Shown here one piece after another: positions 3,967 to 29,212 of a stretch of DNA of 40,286 nt (position 1 is the stretch's first letter; every line of letters starts with the position of its first letter). The DNA lies in assembly GCA_012522085.1 (NCBI GenBank), contig JAAYLE010000148.1:1-40286 (forward strand), written 5' to 3'. This stretch comes from Bacillota bacterium (GTDB lineage Bacteria > Bacillota > Limnochordia > JAAZLZ01). Both the position numbers and the translations under genes were made by a program. The notes beneath the pieces were generated by a model, which saw only the letters and a program-made list of their open reading frames with translations, was not told where the DNA came from and did no database searches.

Positions 3967-4560
3967 TCAAGACTTGTTGTACTGGATAAGGAGCGGTTGA
4001 ATTTGTTTCCCTTGCAGAGCTCCCATTATGGTAGGGATGATCAAGCTCATGTCCGCAACTAGCGAACAAGCCTTGTCCATAGGGTTATCCTGCCCAAAGG
4101 GAACCATGTAGATATTCCGAGCGTTCAACAAGACGCCCAAATTTTTGGCATTGGCCCCAAGTCCGTCGTTGGTGGAAATGGCCACTACCACCGGCCGGTT
4201 ATTGCGCAGATGGGCCTTCGCCGCCATCAGCACCGGGGAATCGGTAATGGCATTGGCCAACTTGCTTAACGTGTTGCCGGTGCAAGGAGCTATGACCAAC
4301 ACATCAAGCAGCCCTTGCGGTCCGATAGGTTCCGAGTCAACAATAGTATCGAGGGGTTCTTTCCCGGTCAACTGTTTGAGTAATCCTCGCCAATGTTCCG
4401 CTGTACCAAATCGCGTGTCTACCTGGGCCACTTCAGTGGAAATGATGGGAATCACGTCTGCGCCCGCTGCCACTAAGGCCTCGACTTGGGGTATGACTTC
4501 AGCGAACGTGCAATAGGAGCCTGTCATCGCGAATCCAACCCTTACATTCGTCAGATCCAC
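3967..4560 (-). CDS. spoVFB: Dipicolinate synthase subunit B
   Basis: Flavoprotein-fold subunit of mother-cell dipicolinate synthase, which makes pyridine-2,6-dicarboxylate from the DapA product; dipicolinate then loads the spore core. Visible: the nucleotide-binding start GFAMTGSYCTF (9-19) and the APCTGNTLSKLANAITDSP block typical of SpoVFB. The 197 residues fit the family (about 200). GTG start after GGGGGGATTCA. It follows spoVFA by about 13 nt and precedes asd, exactly as in B. subtilis. Confidence 0.95.
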   Translation of the reverse strand: MDLTNVRVGFAMTGSYCTFAEVIPQVEALVAAGADVIPIISTEVAQVDTRFGTAEHWRGLLKQLTGKEPLDTIVDSEPIGPQGLLDVLVIAPCTGNTLSKLANAITDSPVLMAAKAHLRNNRPVVVAISTNDGLGANAKNLGVLLNARNIYMVPFGQDNPMDKACSLVADMSLIIPTIMGALQGKQIQPLLIQYNKS

Positions 4561-4573
4561 ACTGAATCCCCCC

Positions 4574-5485
4574 TTAACGTTCGCCAGTCTTGTCGCCCAG
4601 CAAGCGGAGGATTAAATCGGGATACGTCTCAGCCAGTATCCTTCCAGCCGATAAGGGTGCAACCTTTCCCGGGAGACCCAAAGCCAACTCTGCCTCGATG
4701 CCAAGGCGGCGGGCAGCGGCGAAGTCGGTCCCTCCAGGGTGGGAGGCCAAATCAATCACCAACGCCCCTTCGGGGAGTGCTTCCAAGACCTTTTCCGTGA
4801 TCACTAGGTGGGGAACGGTATTGAAGATTACTTGAGCCTTCGCGGCTACTTCGGACAGTTCAGTCAAATGGCGGGATTCCAAGCACATCTCCCGGGCCCG
4901 GGCCAACTGGACAGGATTGCGGGCAACGATCACCACTTCGGCCCCCATGGCGGCTAACAACCGTCCCAAGGTTGCCCCGCAACGACCGAAGCCGACCACC
5001 ACACAGGTACTGCCATGGATGGTCACCGGCAAACGCTCCATGGCCAATTGGACGGCGCCTTCCGCGGTAGGGATGGAGTTTAGGATGGCTATTACGTCAT
5101 CCTCGGCCGTCTCCACCAGCCGAAGCTCATACCGACGGGCCAGCTCCTTAACGATGGGCTTAGCCATGCCGATCAAGAGCGGTGTGCCCGGCGCCAGCCG
5201 ACTGCACAATTCATCGTTCAAGCAAATACGCGCTCCAGGTAGGGGGCAGGACTTAATCCAGCCATCTTGGTCGGTATTGCTCATGGGGGCAATGACAACG
5301 TCCACCCCGTCCACCCCATCAAGGGGATCGGTCACTGCTTCCACATCCCCCGGGGGTAGGGACTCTTGGGGATAGGCAACCGCCTTGATCGTTGCCCCCT
5401 CAGCCGCTAGACCTCGCAGCAGTTCGATCTCCCTACCATCGCCACCTAAAAGGGCGATGCGGATTCCCATGAGTCGCCCAGACAT
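4574..5485 (-). CDS. spoVFA: Dipicolinate synthase subunit A
   Basis: Dehydrogenase-like subunit that acts with SpoVFB. An N-terminal segment with GGDGREIELLRGL is followed by a C-terminal Rossmann domain (VVVGFGRCGATLGRLLAAMGAEV, about residue 155 on). I chose the ATG at 5485 (MSGRLMGIRIALLGG) because GGAGGAG stands 6-7 nt upstream; an upstream in-frame start adds only 7 residues and lacks an SD. The resulting 303 residues compare with about 297 in B. subtilis. A sigma-K-like element (5528-5557) lies in the gap after dapB, so this pair may be expressed in the mother cell independently of dapB. Confidence 0.94.
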   Translation of the reverse strand: MSGRLMGIRIALLGGDGREIELLRGLAAEGATIKAVAYPQESLPPGDVEAVTDPLDGVDGVDVVIAPMSNTDQDGWIKSCPLPGARICLNDELCSRLAPGTPLLIGMAKPIVKELARRYELRLVETAEDDVIAILNSIPTAEGAVQLAMERLPVTIHGSTCVVVGFGRCGATLGRLLAAMGAEVVIVARNPVQLARAREMCLESRHLTELSEVAAKAQVIFNTVPHLVITEKVLEALPEGALVIDLASHPGGTDFAAARRLGIEAELALGLPGKVAPLSAGRILAETYPDLILRLLGDKTGER

Positions 5486-5527
5486 TGCTTCTCCTCCTCC
5501 TGCCAAACGACGAGACTAGCTCGATTT

Positions 5528-7367: not shown

Positions 7368-8636
7368 TCAGAAGGAAATCTCCCACCCTAGGTTGAGGTT
7401 TTTTTCGGGAACCCAATAAGCATCGAGCCGACCCCGGTCGTAACGTCCAAGCTCAAAAAACACCTTGTTGCGTCCCAACTCCCGCTCGGCACGTAAGTAG
7501 TAGTAACGGTTCTTGTCTTCCCGCTGCCTGATCTTGCCGATCCCCCGCAAGGTCCACCCCTTCACTCGGGCATCGAGCTGGAGTCGCCAGCGCCTTTCCA
7601 ATTCTTGAAACCCGACTGTCGCCGACAACCAAGAAAGGATCTTCCCCCGCAACCGGAAGCGCCGATCCCATCCATCTGACTGCTCCACCGCAACGAGGGC
7701 ACTGCTCCAGGGACCACGGTATGCTTCCGTCTCTAACCGGCGTCGACCATTTCGGTCTTCAAGGCGCACCCGCCAACGCCAGTCCAGGATCTTCCGCCCC
7801 AAGAAATCAAGGGACATTTCTTCATCCCTTTGCACACCGGCAAGGTCCGTGAGCCGCTTTACTTCAACTAGCAGCCGGCCCCAGCGATCATTATGCCAGC
7901 GGATCCCCACAGTCGACCCCCGCCGGTCTCGTCGATAGGGATCTTCCCAATTGGCCCAGGATCGCCACCCTTCCCCGATGTGTTGATAAGTCCACGAAAT
8001 ATGGCCCCAAGAAGTGGGATAGCGGAGGGTTGCTACACCTGCCCCATCTTCGCCGTCCCTGTTGACCCTGCCTAAAGCTCCCCCTAGTTCTAACTTGCCC
8101 AGAAGGGCTCGAGCATAGGCATTATACATCCACGCGTACCAATCCGACTCGAGGTGTTGGGCGATGCCGGCACAGCCCAAATGGAGCCTATCTCCCCACC
8201 ACTCCCACTGGGTGCCGGCCAAATGTCCCAAGCGGCGGGGATAGGGAAAATCGCGCACGTAAAGACCGACCAACCGCCCCCGACCCATGTTGCCCACCAG
8301 CACTCCCCCGTAGCTGTCCTCCCTGCGGACGCCTTTAGTGACCATCCGGAAAGGATCGGTGAAGCTGATGTGTTCATGATTGTACATGAGCCGTAGACTC
8401 CAATCGCCAGGCGCCACTCCCCATCGCCCGGACAGCAGCCCCCATTCCTCCTCGGACTTGCGCCCGAGCTCGGCTTCAATCAGCGTCAACGGTCCCCCAC
8501 GGCCGTAGTGGATAATCGGACGGAGCAGGCCTTCCGCCCATTCCATGCGCACACCAAAGTTGACCTTTCCTGTACTCGTCAGCAACAACAAGATAATGCC
8601 GGTATACAGACACAATCGGACCCGCTGATACCGCAT
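7368..8636 (-). CDS. Predicted outer-membrane beta-barrel protein
   Basis: No named family recognised. The 422-residue protein starts with a signal-like segment (basic MRYQRVR, then LYTGIILLLLTSTG). The rest is an almost unbroken series of short amphipathic strands with alternating aromatic and charged residues, rich in Trp, Tyr, Arg and Gly, linked by polar turns. No cysteine follows the signal except one mid-protein. It ends in strand-like LNLGWEISF with terminal Phe, the pattern recognised by BamA in outer-membrane barrels. This fits a porin or OMP of roughly 20 strands in a diderm envelope. ATG at 8636 with AAAGGAGGA; the SD sits in the loop of a start-codon hairpin (8634-8657). It lies between dUTPase and ymxH, interrupting an otherwise Bacillus-like order. 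A surface adhesin is an alternative. Confidence 0.6.
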   Translation of the reverse strand: MRYQRVRLCLYTGIILLLLTSTGKVNFGVRMEWAEGLLRPIIHYGRGGPLTLIEAELGRKSEEEWGLLSGRWGVAPGDWSLRLMYNHEHISFTDPFRMVTKGVRREDSYGGVLVGNMGRGRLVGLYVRDFPYPRRLGHLAGTQWEWWGDRLHLGCAGIAQHLESDWYAWMYNAYARALLGKLELGGALGRVNRDGEDGAGVATLRYPTSWGHISWTYQHIGEGWRSWANWEDPYRRDRRGSTVGIRWHNDRWGRLLVEVKRLTDLAGVQRDEEMSLDFLGRKILDWRWRVRLEDRNGRRRLETEAYRGPWSSALVAVEQSDGWDRRFRLRGKILSWLSATVGFQELERRWRLQLDARVKGWTLRGIGKIRQREDKNRYYYLRAERELGRNKVFFELGRYDRGRLDAYWVPEKNLNLGWEISF

Positions 8637-8657
8637 GCTAAATCCTCCTTTAGCATG
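8634..8657 (-). promoter_or_regulatory. SD-in-loop hairpin covering the start codon of the beta-barrel gene
   Basis: In the mRNA, CAUGCUAAA (8657-8649) and UUUAGCAUG (8642-8634) are perfect complements of 9 bp enclosing a 6-nt loop that is exactly the SD, GGAGGA. The final AUG of the 3' arm is the start codon, so all three of its bases are paired. This is a strong candidate for translational control such as an RNA thermometer or protein-binding hairpin. Confidence 0.65.
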
Positions 8658-8705
8658 GGCCGGCGGGTCCGGTTAAATTTAGCTTAACAAATTGATCTTA
8701 GCCAG

Positions 8706-9071
8706 TCAATCGCGTGCAGGGGCCTCATATCCCCTGCGCAGGGAGGTGCCGTGCTGACGCCGGAAGTTCTCTTGGTTCTTGGTCAAATAACCCTGGTAAA
8801 GCTCCTCCGGCGAAATGTCGCACTTCAGGCACATGCTAACGAAGAAGTGAAGAATATCCACCAGCTCTTCCTTTACCCTCTCCCGATCGACAGGCTGGGG
8901 ATTCTTCCACCACTTGAAATTCACTTCATTAAGGAGTTCGGCAAGTTCGGCAACGATCGCCAGGGTTTCCTTTTGCAGCCAGGTGGACAAATCGTAGTCT
9001 AACCCTCTATTGTGAATGAGCTCGTCGTCAAACTTGCGCTGCAGCTGAAAAATATGTTCAAGTCGATCCAA
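8706..9071 (-). CDS. Dimeric (all-alpha) dUTP diphosphatase
   Basis: Hydrolyses dUTP, or related nucleotides, to the monophosphate, keeping uracil out of DNA. It resembles the dUTPase_2/MazG-like all-alpha superfamily: LEHIFQLQRKFDDEL, the helix with metal-binding glutamates (ETLAIVAELAELLNE followed by FKWWKN), EELVDILHFFVSMCL and the C-terminal YLTKNQENFRRQ. I chose TTG at 9071 (MDRLEHIF) because GGAGGT lies six bases upstream; the longer reading from 9098 lacks an SD. Length 121, a compact form of the family, so a MazG-type pyrophosphatase with another substrate is possible. It starts 12 nt after mlpA ends, so the two are probably co-transcribed. Confidence 0.75.
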   Translation of the reverse strand: MDRLEHIFQLQRKFDDELIHNRGLDYDLSTWLQKETLAIVAELAELLNEVNFKWWKNPQPVDRERVKEELVDILHFFVSMCLKCDISPEELYQGYLTKNQENFRRQHGTSLRRGYEAPARD

Positions 9072-9082
9072 AGGGCAACCTC

Positions 9083-10324
9083 CTATCCAGCTTGCCAAAG
9101 AACTTCTTCTGTGGGGCCAATAGCCGCGGCGGTCAGCGGCCCCGATAGTAAACGCTGGGCAACCCGCTGAACCATGTCCACAGTGACGGCATCGATCTTC
9201 GCCGCAAGTTCATCGGGAGTCAAAATGGCTTCATAAAACAACTCCGACTTAGCGATCCTCCCCATCCGGGCCGCGGTGCTTTCCAGGCCCAGCATCAAGC
9301 TTCCCTTCAACTGCTCCTGCCCCCGATGCAATTCCTCCGCCGTTACCCCCTCTTCCATCAGCCGGTCGAATTCATCCTGGATGATTTGGGTGACCTGGCC
9401 GACGTTTTCCGGTCCCGTCCCGACATAAACGCCGAAAACCCCCGCATCCTGGAAACATGAATGGTAGGAGTAGGTGGAATAAACCAGGCCCCGTTCCTCC
9501 CGCAGCCGCTGAAACAATCGGGAGCTCATGCCTCCCCCGAGGATTACATCAAGGACGTAAACAGCAAACTTGTCTTCGTCATGGCGAGGAACTCCCAACC
9601 CGCCGATGCAAAGATGCACTTGCTCAATATCTTTGTATCTCAAGGCAGCCTCACCGGGCTTGTCCACCGGCATCACGTTAGTTATCAACGGACGGGAAGG
9701 CAGGGAAGAAAAATACTGCTTGACTTGGTCAACTACCTGTTGATGGGTGACATTGCCTGCCGCGGCCACCACCAAATTGCCGGGTACGTAATAATCGGCG
9801 ATGAATTCCATTACGTCCTCTCGCTTCATCTCACGGATGTTGTCCTCGGAGCCGAGGACAGACAACCCTAAGGGATGACTACCGAGGACGGCGCTGGCAA
9901 ACAGATCGTGGACCAGCTCATCCGGCGAGTCTTCACACATGCGGATTTCTTCAATAACAACGTTTTTTTCCTTCTCCATCTCTTCCAGGTCGAAGACCGA
10001 GTTTAAGAACATATCCGCTAACAACTCCGCGGCAACAGGCAGCTGTTCATCAAGGATCCGGGCATAATAACAGGTCCGCTCCTTGCCGGTAAAGGCGTTG
10101 AGCTGACCCCCCGCAGCATCAATAACTTCAGCTATTTCCCGGGCAGAGCGGTTTGTTGTTCCTTTGAACATCAAGTGCTCGATTAGATGAGAAATGCCGT
10201 TGTTTTCCACCGTTTCGTTTCGAGAGCCAGTGCGGAACCAAAACCCTAAGGACACCGTTCTTACGTATGGGATCGACTCCGTCACGACTCTGATTCCGTT
10301 TGGCAAGATCGTTTTCTGGTACAA
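9083..10324 (-). CDS. mlpA: M16 family zinc peptidase (MlpA/YmxG-like)
   Basis: Insulinase-family metallopeptidase. The inverted zinc motif HLIEH lies at about residues 46-50 with the downstream glutamate in EEIRMCEDSPDEL, followed by the M16 C-terminal half carrying GGGMSSRLFQRLREERGLVYS. No signal peptide, so cytoplasmic. At 413 residues it is a single-unit M16 enzyme. TTG at 10324 (LYQKTILPNGIRVV) has GGGAGGT seven bases upstream and agrees with the usual N-terminus; the start at 10342 does not. It has its own strong promoter (10355-10383). In B. subtilis it sits between ylxY and ymxH, as here if the inserted genes are ignored. Confidence 0.88.
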   Translation of the reverse strand: MYQKTILPNGIRVVTESIPYVRTVSLGFWFRTGSRNETVENNGISHLIEHLMFKGTTNRSAREIAEVIDAAGGQLNAFTGKERTCYYARILDEQLPVAAELLADMFLNSVFDLEEMEKEKNVVIEEIRMCEDSPDELVHDLFASAVLGSHPLGLSVLGSEDNIREMKREDVMEFIADYYVPGNLVVAAAGNVTHQQVVDQVKQYFSSLPSRPLITNVMPVDKPGEAALRYKDIEQVHLCIGGLGVPRHDEDKFAVYVLDVILGGGMSSRLFQRLREERGLVYSTYSYHSCFQDAGVFGVYVGTGPENVGQVTQIIQDEFDRLMEEGVTAEELHRGQEQLKGSLMLGLESTAARMGRIAKSELFYEAILTPDELAAKIDAVTVDMVQRVAQRLLSGPLTAAAIGPTEEVLWQAG

Positions 10325-27897: not shown

Positions 27898-28623
27898 TTA
27901 CTCTCCTCGTTTCCCTTTCCGCTTCCGTCCCTTCTTGGACTGCCGATTAGCCTTTCCGAAGATGGCAATCCCGGTGCCCTTCTCAAGCCAGTAAAACAGC
28001 CGGCCCACGGCGAGGACGATATCATCGGCGTATTTTAACGCAATCACTTTCCCACAAGCTTTGCCCGCAACGGTCAAGGCGGCAATCACCGCCACCATCA
28101 GGGTCGTCACTACCGGTTCTTTGAATCCCGGCCGCAACAGGAGCACGCGCATCACAACCGCCGTGGCCACGGCGCCGCTCAGCGTTCCGGCCACATCACC
28201 GACCATATCGTTGGCAAAGTTGGCTACTCTGTCGGCATGGCGAATGAGGCGGACAGCTTGCTGTGCGCCGGCAACCCGGTCGACAGCCATCGCATGGAAG
28301 GGCTCTTCCCGAGCGGCGGTGACAGCAACCCCGACGATGTCAAAAATGATGCCTAGTCCCACGATGACCAGGAGCAAGACCAAAGCAGGTAAGAGGGTGA
28401 AGAAGGTGAGAAGGGTTTGACTCCCCAGCGAAATGAACACTGATAAAAAAAAGGTCGCTACCCCGACGGCCACAAACCGCCGTATCTGAGAGCGAAAATT
28501 CGGCTCGCCCAAGGAAAGGAACACCGCCTCCTTAGGGTATGTATGGGCCGGCAGCACGCTGAGTAAAGATTGTGGCTTCAGGTCCAGCAGGTTTTCCCAC
28601 AGGCCTTCCGAAGATGTTGCCAT
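27898..28623 (-). CDS. Conserved membrane protein between ispA and dxs
   Basis: 241 residues with four or more membrane helices and a Lys/Arg-rich tail (QSKKGRKRKGKRGE). The core FDIVGVAVTAAREEPFHAMAVDRVAGAQQAVRLIRHADRVANFANDMVGDVAGTLSGA recalls conserved Clostridia proteins sometimes linked loosely to the CNNM/DUF21 fold; no transport function is known (the quoted block spans more than one motif and is given here as its key parts: AVTAA, PFHAM, ANDMVGD). ATG at 28623 has AAAGGGG upstream; the extension to 28716 looks non-coding. The stop adjoins the dxs start (2 bp), so they are co-expressed. A 589-bp gap precedes it. Confidence 0.65.
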   Translation of the reverse strand: MATSSEGLWENLLDLKPQSLLSVLPAHTYPKEAVFLSLGEPNFRSQIRRFVAVGVATFFLSVFISLGSQTLLTFFTLLPALVLLLVIVGLGIIFDIVGVAVTAAREEPFHAMAVDRVAGAQQAVRLIRHADRVANFANDMVGDVAGTLSGAVATAVVMRVLLLRPGFKEPVVTTLMVAVIAALTVAGKACGKVIALKYADDIVLAVGRLFYWLEKGTGIAIFGKANRQSKKGRKRKGKRGE

Positions 28624-29212
28624 CTTGGCGGTTTCCCCTTTACGGCCTGCCTGTTCTGTCGCCAAGAACAGAGCTAGATCGCCACTTAGCCCACATCGCA
28701 ATCCCCAACGTGCCATCCACCGGAAACAGTCTAGGAGTTTTCCTCAACGACGCTAATTGCCTTCTAGCCCCTTTTGCAGAATGGGTTTCAAGCAGTCCAA
28801 ACCAAGAATAGGTTCCACGGCCGCTGAACCATTCTTGTACCATGCTATCCCACCACCCCACTCAGGGCAGGCTACACTGCACCCAACACTAAGTACTGCG
28901 AAAGCAGCTTCTGCATCGCGTGCAGGTTCAGCCCAAGCCGTAACCGATGGCCACGAACTTGGGTCTCCGCGGAAAGGGGGTCAACGCCTACATGCCTTTG
29001 TAGATCGCCCCCGCTTCCTTAACCCCCAGCAGCAGCCCCCGACTGGGCGTCGGCGGCCACCACCAGGGACTTCATCGATGTGCCCTCGACGGATTTTTAG
29101 GCCCGTCTTCAAAGGCAACCGCGCCGACTAGAATACTGCGCCGGCCCACTGTTTGGTGTAGCTGTATTATAACACACCGCCCCAAACCCCGCAAGCAACA
29201 GCATTCACAGGC
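28624..29212. other. 589-bp intergenic gap with promoter, hairpins and decayed-looking frames
   Basis: No gene could be supported. It holds a good minus-strand promoter at the ispA end (29166-29194); a structured stretch where GGGGGTTAA (29021-29029) pairs with TTGACCCCC (28976-28984) around a smaller CTACA/TGTAG hairpin; a frame of MKSLVVAADAQSGAAAGG (from ATG about 29074, SD GAGGG) that hits TAA and then stays open for about 48 codons; and a 7-bp hairpin CTGTTCT/AGAACAG (28651-28671) just before the next gene. It may be a non-coding RNA, a pseudogene or a long leader. Confidence 0.5.
29166..29194 (-). promoter_or_regulatory. Promoter downstream of ispA
   Basis: Minus strand: -35 TTGCGG (29189-29194), a 17-nt spacer and a perfect -10 TATAAT (29166-29171) preceded by TGT (extended -10). 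It begins 19 nt after the ispA stop and fires into the 589-bp gap. Confidence 0.65.

Follow-up and report, generated by a model that had tools for sequence, protein, structure and literature searches.

A candidate cis-acting RNA element enclosing the start codon of a predicted outer-membrane protein gene in Limnochordia

Described hairpins at initiation regions and the window leader

The replicase operator of phages MS2 and R17 is a hairpin with the start codon at its 3′ base, the Shine-Dalgarno (SD) sequence at its top and CAUG on both sides. Toehold switches and crRNA riboregulators, repressed by default, carry the SD in a loop and the start codon in or beside the stem. In flagellin and glgC mRNAs, CsrA binds GGA in a hairpin loop and blocks the SD. 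The MS2 coat protein represses the RdRp gene via the TR stem-loop (PMC9894550), and in-cell structures of related riboregulators have been described (PMC4737173). High-affinity CsrA sites are ANGGAN hexaloops, and most SELEX winners had no more than four contiguous base pairs (PMC7652899).

We analysed a hairpin in a genome of Limnochordia, a diderm class whose genomes come chiefly from digesters and mud (PMC11456536). The whole stretch of DNA under study (contig JAAYLE010000148.1, 40,286 nt) is referred to as the window. The inner hairpin, CATGCTAAA-GGAGGA-TTTAGCATG, occupies positions 8634-8657 of the minus strand. An earlier note made from the letters alone had described this 24-nt sequence, with perfect 9-bp arms, a GGAGGA loop and a paired AUG (8636-8634), and we found every one of these details at the given positions. 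The minus strand reads, 5′ to 3′, TTGACT-N17-TAAGCT-AAATTTAAC-CGGACCCGC-CG-GCC-CATGCTAAA-GGAGGA-TTTAGCATG-C-GGT-ATCA-GCGGGTCCG.

Folding extends the 5′ arm of the inner stem (P2) to GCC + CATGCTAAA (8649-8660, minus strand). The SD, GGAGGA, forms the hexaloop (8643-8648, minus strand), and the 3′ arm TTTAGCATG (8634-8642, minus strand) contains the start codon, with a predicted pairing probability of 1.00. Repeat search and folding both identified an outer stem (P1) of 9 bp. Its non-coding 5′ arm CGGACCCGC lies at 8663-8671 and its 3′ arm GCGGGTCCG, located inside codons 4-7, at 8617-8625 (both minus strand); the repeat search gave 12-nt arms with 92% complementarity. Three further pairs accompany the outer stem around the inner hairpin. 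A candidate promoter lies at 8681-8709 (minus strand), with TTGACT (8709-8704), a 17-nt spacer and TAAGCT (8686-8681), a weak −10 (p = 0.05). The earlier note contained neither the outer stem, nor the promoter that places the transcript start approximately at this stem, nor the intrinsic-terminator tail seen in relatives.

The whole fold of 69 nt has a predicted free energy of −36.1 kcal/mol, compared with −19.4 ± 2.8 kcal/mol in dinucleotide shuffles (z −6.1); 0 of 200 shuffles folded as well. The leader was also more stable than all 136 background windows of its own locus. The claim that the initiation region is folded was borne out, and the fold is under selection. The claim that such a repeat is unlikely by chance applies to its exact placement and not to the arms: with loops limited to 3-10 nt, perfect 9-bp hairpins number two on the minus strand of the window, for 1.55 expected in composition-matched random sequence. 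For 40 kb the inner arms by themselves are mildly unusual; exact placement and nesting are the unlikely part, and it is the relatives that decide the question.

In the congener G001 (JAAYLV010000001.1; 85% amino-acid identity) the leader fold is intact. Over the 24 nt there is a single difference, in the loop (GGAGGA to GGGGGA), and all 12 bases of the P2 5′ arm are the same. Other changes in the G001 leader lie in the bulge after the AUG and in P1, with an A-U to G-U change and loss of the terminal pair. Among the inner hairpin's 15 non-coding bases there is thus one change, against 40% at fourfold-degenerate positions; at that rate so few changes have P = 0.006. Close-relative comparison was made with G001, as the contig of the other congener, G002, ends inside the gene.

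Like the MS2/R17 operator, the window hairpin has the SD at its top, the start codon at its 3′ base and CAUG on both sides; unlike the operator, its stem is longer, nested in a second stem and promoter-proximal, and in most of the class the element carries a terminator tail. We know of no coat-like repressor for the window element. It also resembles toehold switches in having the SD in the loop and the start codon in the stem, and differs from them in being natural and conserved, with the start codon fully paired and not bulged. Since the transcript is predicted to begin approximately at the stem, there would be no 5′ toehold, and to our knowledge no trigger RNA has been described. The earlier note knew of no element of this form in spore-forming Bacillota. 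An Rfam 15 search of the window and 14 ortholog loci matched no family to the leader element; the geometry, however, has precedent in the MS2 replicase operator and synthetic toehold switches.

Related leaders across the class

The gene order M16 peptidase, MazG/dUTPase-like gene, predicted beta-barrel gene, PRC gene is conserved in distant families across the class. We inspected leaders of distant orthologs and found structured barrel starts almost throughout, in most families. The f5/f13 leaders have an outer stem CUCCGCG/CGCGGAG and an inner hairpin pairing both the SD and a UUG. In f7 the arrangement is CATGCCC-[..SD..]-GGGCATG, and the f6 leaders have the form CACCGGCC-[ GGAAAGGAGTGACT ]-GGTCGGTG with a paired GUG. 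In an f3 locus (L031) the SD, just upstream of the barrel ATG, is paired in CCTCCTG/CAGGAGG and the start codon lies outside; this appears to be a different way of hiding the initiation region of the equivalent gene. Alignment of the window leader with the f7 leaders was too poor to be usable.

A covariance model, R1, was built from seven f5/f13 leaders. Of the 73 class genomes, 30 each gave a single strong match (E from 3e-22 to 7e-5), 23 of them outside the training set, and all 30 matches adjoin at least one of the syntenic genes (M16, mazG, barrel, PRC). In the alignment of the 30 sequences 94.9% of cells are paired, and nine of 19 pairs have double changes (24 cells); slid structures gave 34-63% paired cells and 0 of 500 shuffles reached the real value. 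Compensatory changes are exemplified by an outer-stem CUCCG/CGGAG that becomes CUUCG/CGAAG and an inner-stem AUGC/GCAU that becomes AUGU/ACAU. In most R1 members the UUG in the inner stem, properly spaced from the SD, is a better start than AUG. Comparison with relatives and a search for compensatory changes had been proposed in the earlier note; across the class the outcome was positive, in the congener, in the ortholog leaders and in the covariation.

In most R1 matches a sigma-A promoter lies 4-6 nt ahead of the element, so transcripts are expected to have their 5′ ends at the outer stem or a few bases from it. TTGGAA-17-TATAAT or a similar sequence is directly upstream of the element at p ≤ 0.02 in 23 of the 30, and consensus TATAAT occupies the equivalent −10 place in most distant orthologs. 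All 30 members have a U-tract (5-7 U in 8 nt) after the start-enclosing stem. Phe codons within this tract are TTT rather than TTC in a ratio of 43:5, compared with 229:152 in the remainder of these genes (p = 2.5e-5). This bias suggests that the RNA, and not the peptide alone, is under selection.

Start codons paired with probability above 0.9 were found in 31 of 46 barrel starts and in 15 of 94 control starts of neighbouring genes. The difference was present in R1 leaders (20/30; p = 6e-6) as well as in non-R1 leaders (11/16; Mann-Whitney p = 1e-4), with p-values that overstate independence because the sequences are related. Measured against the local background, the f1 leaders and some of those in f6 and f7 are extremely stable; the others are ordinary.

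R1 did not match the window leader: with filters off, a search of 161 nt scored 4.5 bits (E 0.22), and P1 alone aligned. The window element shares the position of the R1 type, promoter-proximal at the syntenic barrel start after M16-mazG, and its architecture, an outer stem formed with early codons around an inner hairpin with the SD and a paired start codon. The case for shared descent with R1 is therefore built on synteny, promoter position and architecture, and convergent evolution towards a common regulatory need would give the same picture. Beyond the class, a search of 399 genomes of the phylum with R1 gave no genuine match (one class member and one unrelated terminator), and viral contigs yielded no relative.

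In R1 members the internal loop GCCCARGGGAGAU (alignment A6, columns 10-20) is nearly invariant, though unpaired and non-coding.

The nine f6 leaders in alignment A7 (L023, L024, L029, L032, L034-L036, L040 and L041) have a strictly conserved −10-like GATAAT. In the same nine leaders an unpaired CCAG motif and a terminator-like hairpin are followed by a separate start hairpin. The terminator-like hairpin (GCCCG/CGGGC, tail UUUUGUCUUU), upstream of the start hairpin, has compensatory changes in two genomes. A two-module attenuator is a possible reading of the f6 leader.

Proposed control and rival explanations

With structure, conservation and covariation, position, promoter and selection on the U-tract established computationally, we consider that the hairpin probably represents, in the window, a cis-acting RNA control element located at the mRNA 5′ end of a syntenic outer-membrane gene in much of the class. 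The transcript would start at the outer stem or no more than a few bases from it, and the first codons of the gene would supply the 3′ strand of that stem. The inner hairpin would pair the start codon and contain the SD, either in the loop or in the upper part of the stem; such a fold would oppose initiation, and from it we infer repression as the default state. In about 30 class genomes the U-tract directly follows the outer stem, so the same fold would also be an intrinsic terminator acting near codon 5, an attenuator enclosing the start codon. A 30S subunit, or another factor, opening the fold would then allow both elongation and translation. More tentatively, the element may be a natural, class-wide translation-licensed attenuator: the terminator hairpin would contain the gene's SD and start codon, and a 30S subunit that binds productively, or a factor assisting it, would serve as the antiterminator. 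On this reading, to which we give a fairly low probability, the gene would be transcribed only when immediately translatable.

A promoter, a short leader, a GC-rich hairpin and a U-tract before the gene are shared with intrinsic-terminator attenuators of Bacillota. Unlike in those leaders, the terminator stem of the R1 type encloses the SD and start codon, the U-tract encodes Phe residues of the signal peptide, and one fold would block termination-controlled elongation and initiation together. The window copy itself has a tail, AUUGUGUC, with four U in 8 nt right after the outer stem, compared with a threshold of at least five, and the terminator scan made no call on the minus strand at this leader. 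The U-poor tail makes terminator function doubtful here, and the window copy probably acts at translation alone. The class-wide picture is further limited by departures from it: in f3 the pairing covers the SD but leaves out the start codon, some f6 and f7 leaders are of ordinary stability, and the f6 terminator hairpin is separate.

What would open or hold the fold could be a protein. CsrA (possibly CsrA/FliW) could bind the loop GGA and block the SD: csrA is present in 65 of the 73 class genomes, including that of the window (G000:C185, E 1.2e-24), the loop contains GGA as in CsrA/RsmA-repressed hairpins, and in R1-type leaders the internal loop contains a further conserved motif, AGGGA. We consider this reading rather unlikely, given that the loop is GGAGGA (GGGGGA in G001, where the motif is lost) and not an ANGGAN hexaloop, the 9-bp stem is far longer than CsrA prefers, four of nine f6 leaders lack GGA at the CCCAG motif, and the U-tract is left unexplained. 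R1-type leaders may nevertheless have a binding site in their conserved unpaired motif CCCAG/AGGGA. A small RNA acting in trans, or alternative pairing of the leader, could likewise open the lock; this motif and the likeness to riboregulators with the SD in the loop fit such an opener, which we nevertheless hold to be quite improbable, as Rfam gives nothing nearby. The fold might instead be a device for processing, insulation or stability that terminates the transcript of M16 and mazG and protects the barrel mRNA from decay at its 5′ end, with the start codon inside for compactness. Its location between two genes, the promoter that sets the mRNA 5′ end approximately at the stem, and the terminator-like look of R1 members agree with this. 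However, start-codon pairing is kept while stem sequences vary, and with the promoter upstream of the stem an insulating terminator would cut the gene's own mRNA too, which leaves insulation unlikely.

Two further readings are very improbable. The earlier note had suggested that translation may depend on temperature, and the initiation region does sit in a hairpin; RNA thermometers, however, use weak, imperfect stems. In silico melting gave a start-codon pairing above 0.9 at temperatures up to 85 °C for the window copy, and of 0.88 at 85 °C for G001, and the thermometer was rejected. A DNA palindrome bound by a transcription factor is equally hard to credit: the perfect 9-6-9 dyad does lie about 20 bases downstream of the candidate promoter, but the outer stem is offset from it, and relatives keep the pairing with other dyad sequences. 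Allowing up to three mismatches, the dyad occurs nowhere else in the genome, and the operator was rejected too.

If the preferred reading, a cis-acting RNA control element, is correct, the locus provides a candidate conserved cis-regulatory RNA, previously undescribed, that controls an envelope-protein gene in diderm Bacillota. This group is pivotal for understanding how cells with two membranes came to have one. A terminator that encloses the start codon would be a compact design, with one fold gating transcription and translation, and a natural counterpart of the toehold geometry used in synthetic biology.

The gene product and its genome

The putatively regulated gene (7368-8636, minus strand) encodes a predicted outer-membrane protein of 422 aa with a signal peptide and a C-terminal F, assigned to no Pfam family. 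Upstream of it is a MazG/dUTPase_2-like gene (8706-9098, minus strand), whose stop codon overlaps the candidate −35. The beta-barrel label of the earlier note is plausible: besides the signal peptide and C-terminal F, BamA is encoded in the window's genome and two orthologs have weak Porin_4 matches. It stops short of proof, as the AlphaFold model has a pLDDT of 32 and is unusable; a profile of the protein had no match among solved structures.

The barrel protein is very divergent, and a profile of seven orthologs detects it in 31 of the 73 class genomes. In several families of the class neither an ortholog, by this profile, nor an R1 element, by the covariance model, was found among the 73 genomes.

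Elsewhere in the window, dpaB- and dpaA-like genes (dipicolinate synthase; 3967-5506, minus strand) were read by eye from the translations, pointing to a capacity for sporulation in this BamA-encoding genome. The window also contains a full-length OLE (Ornate Large Extremophilic) RNA at 28532-29160 (minus strand), scoring 460 bits against Rfam RF01071.
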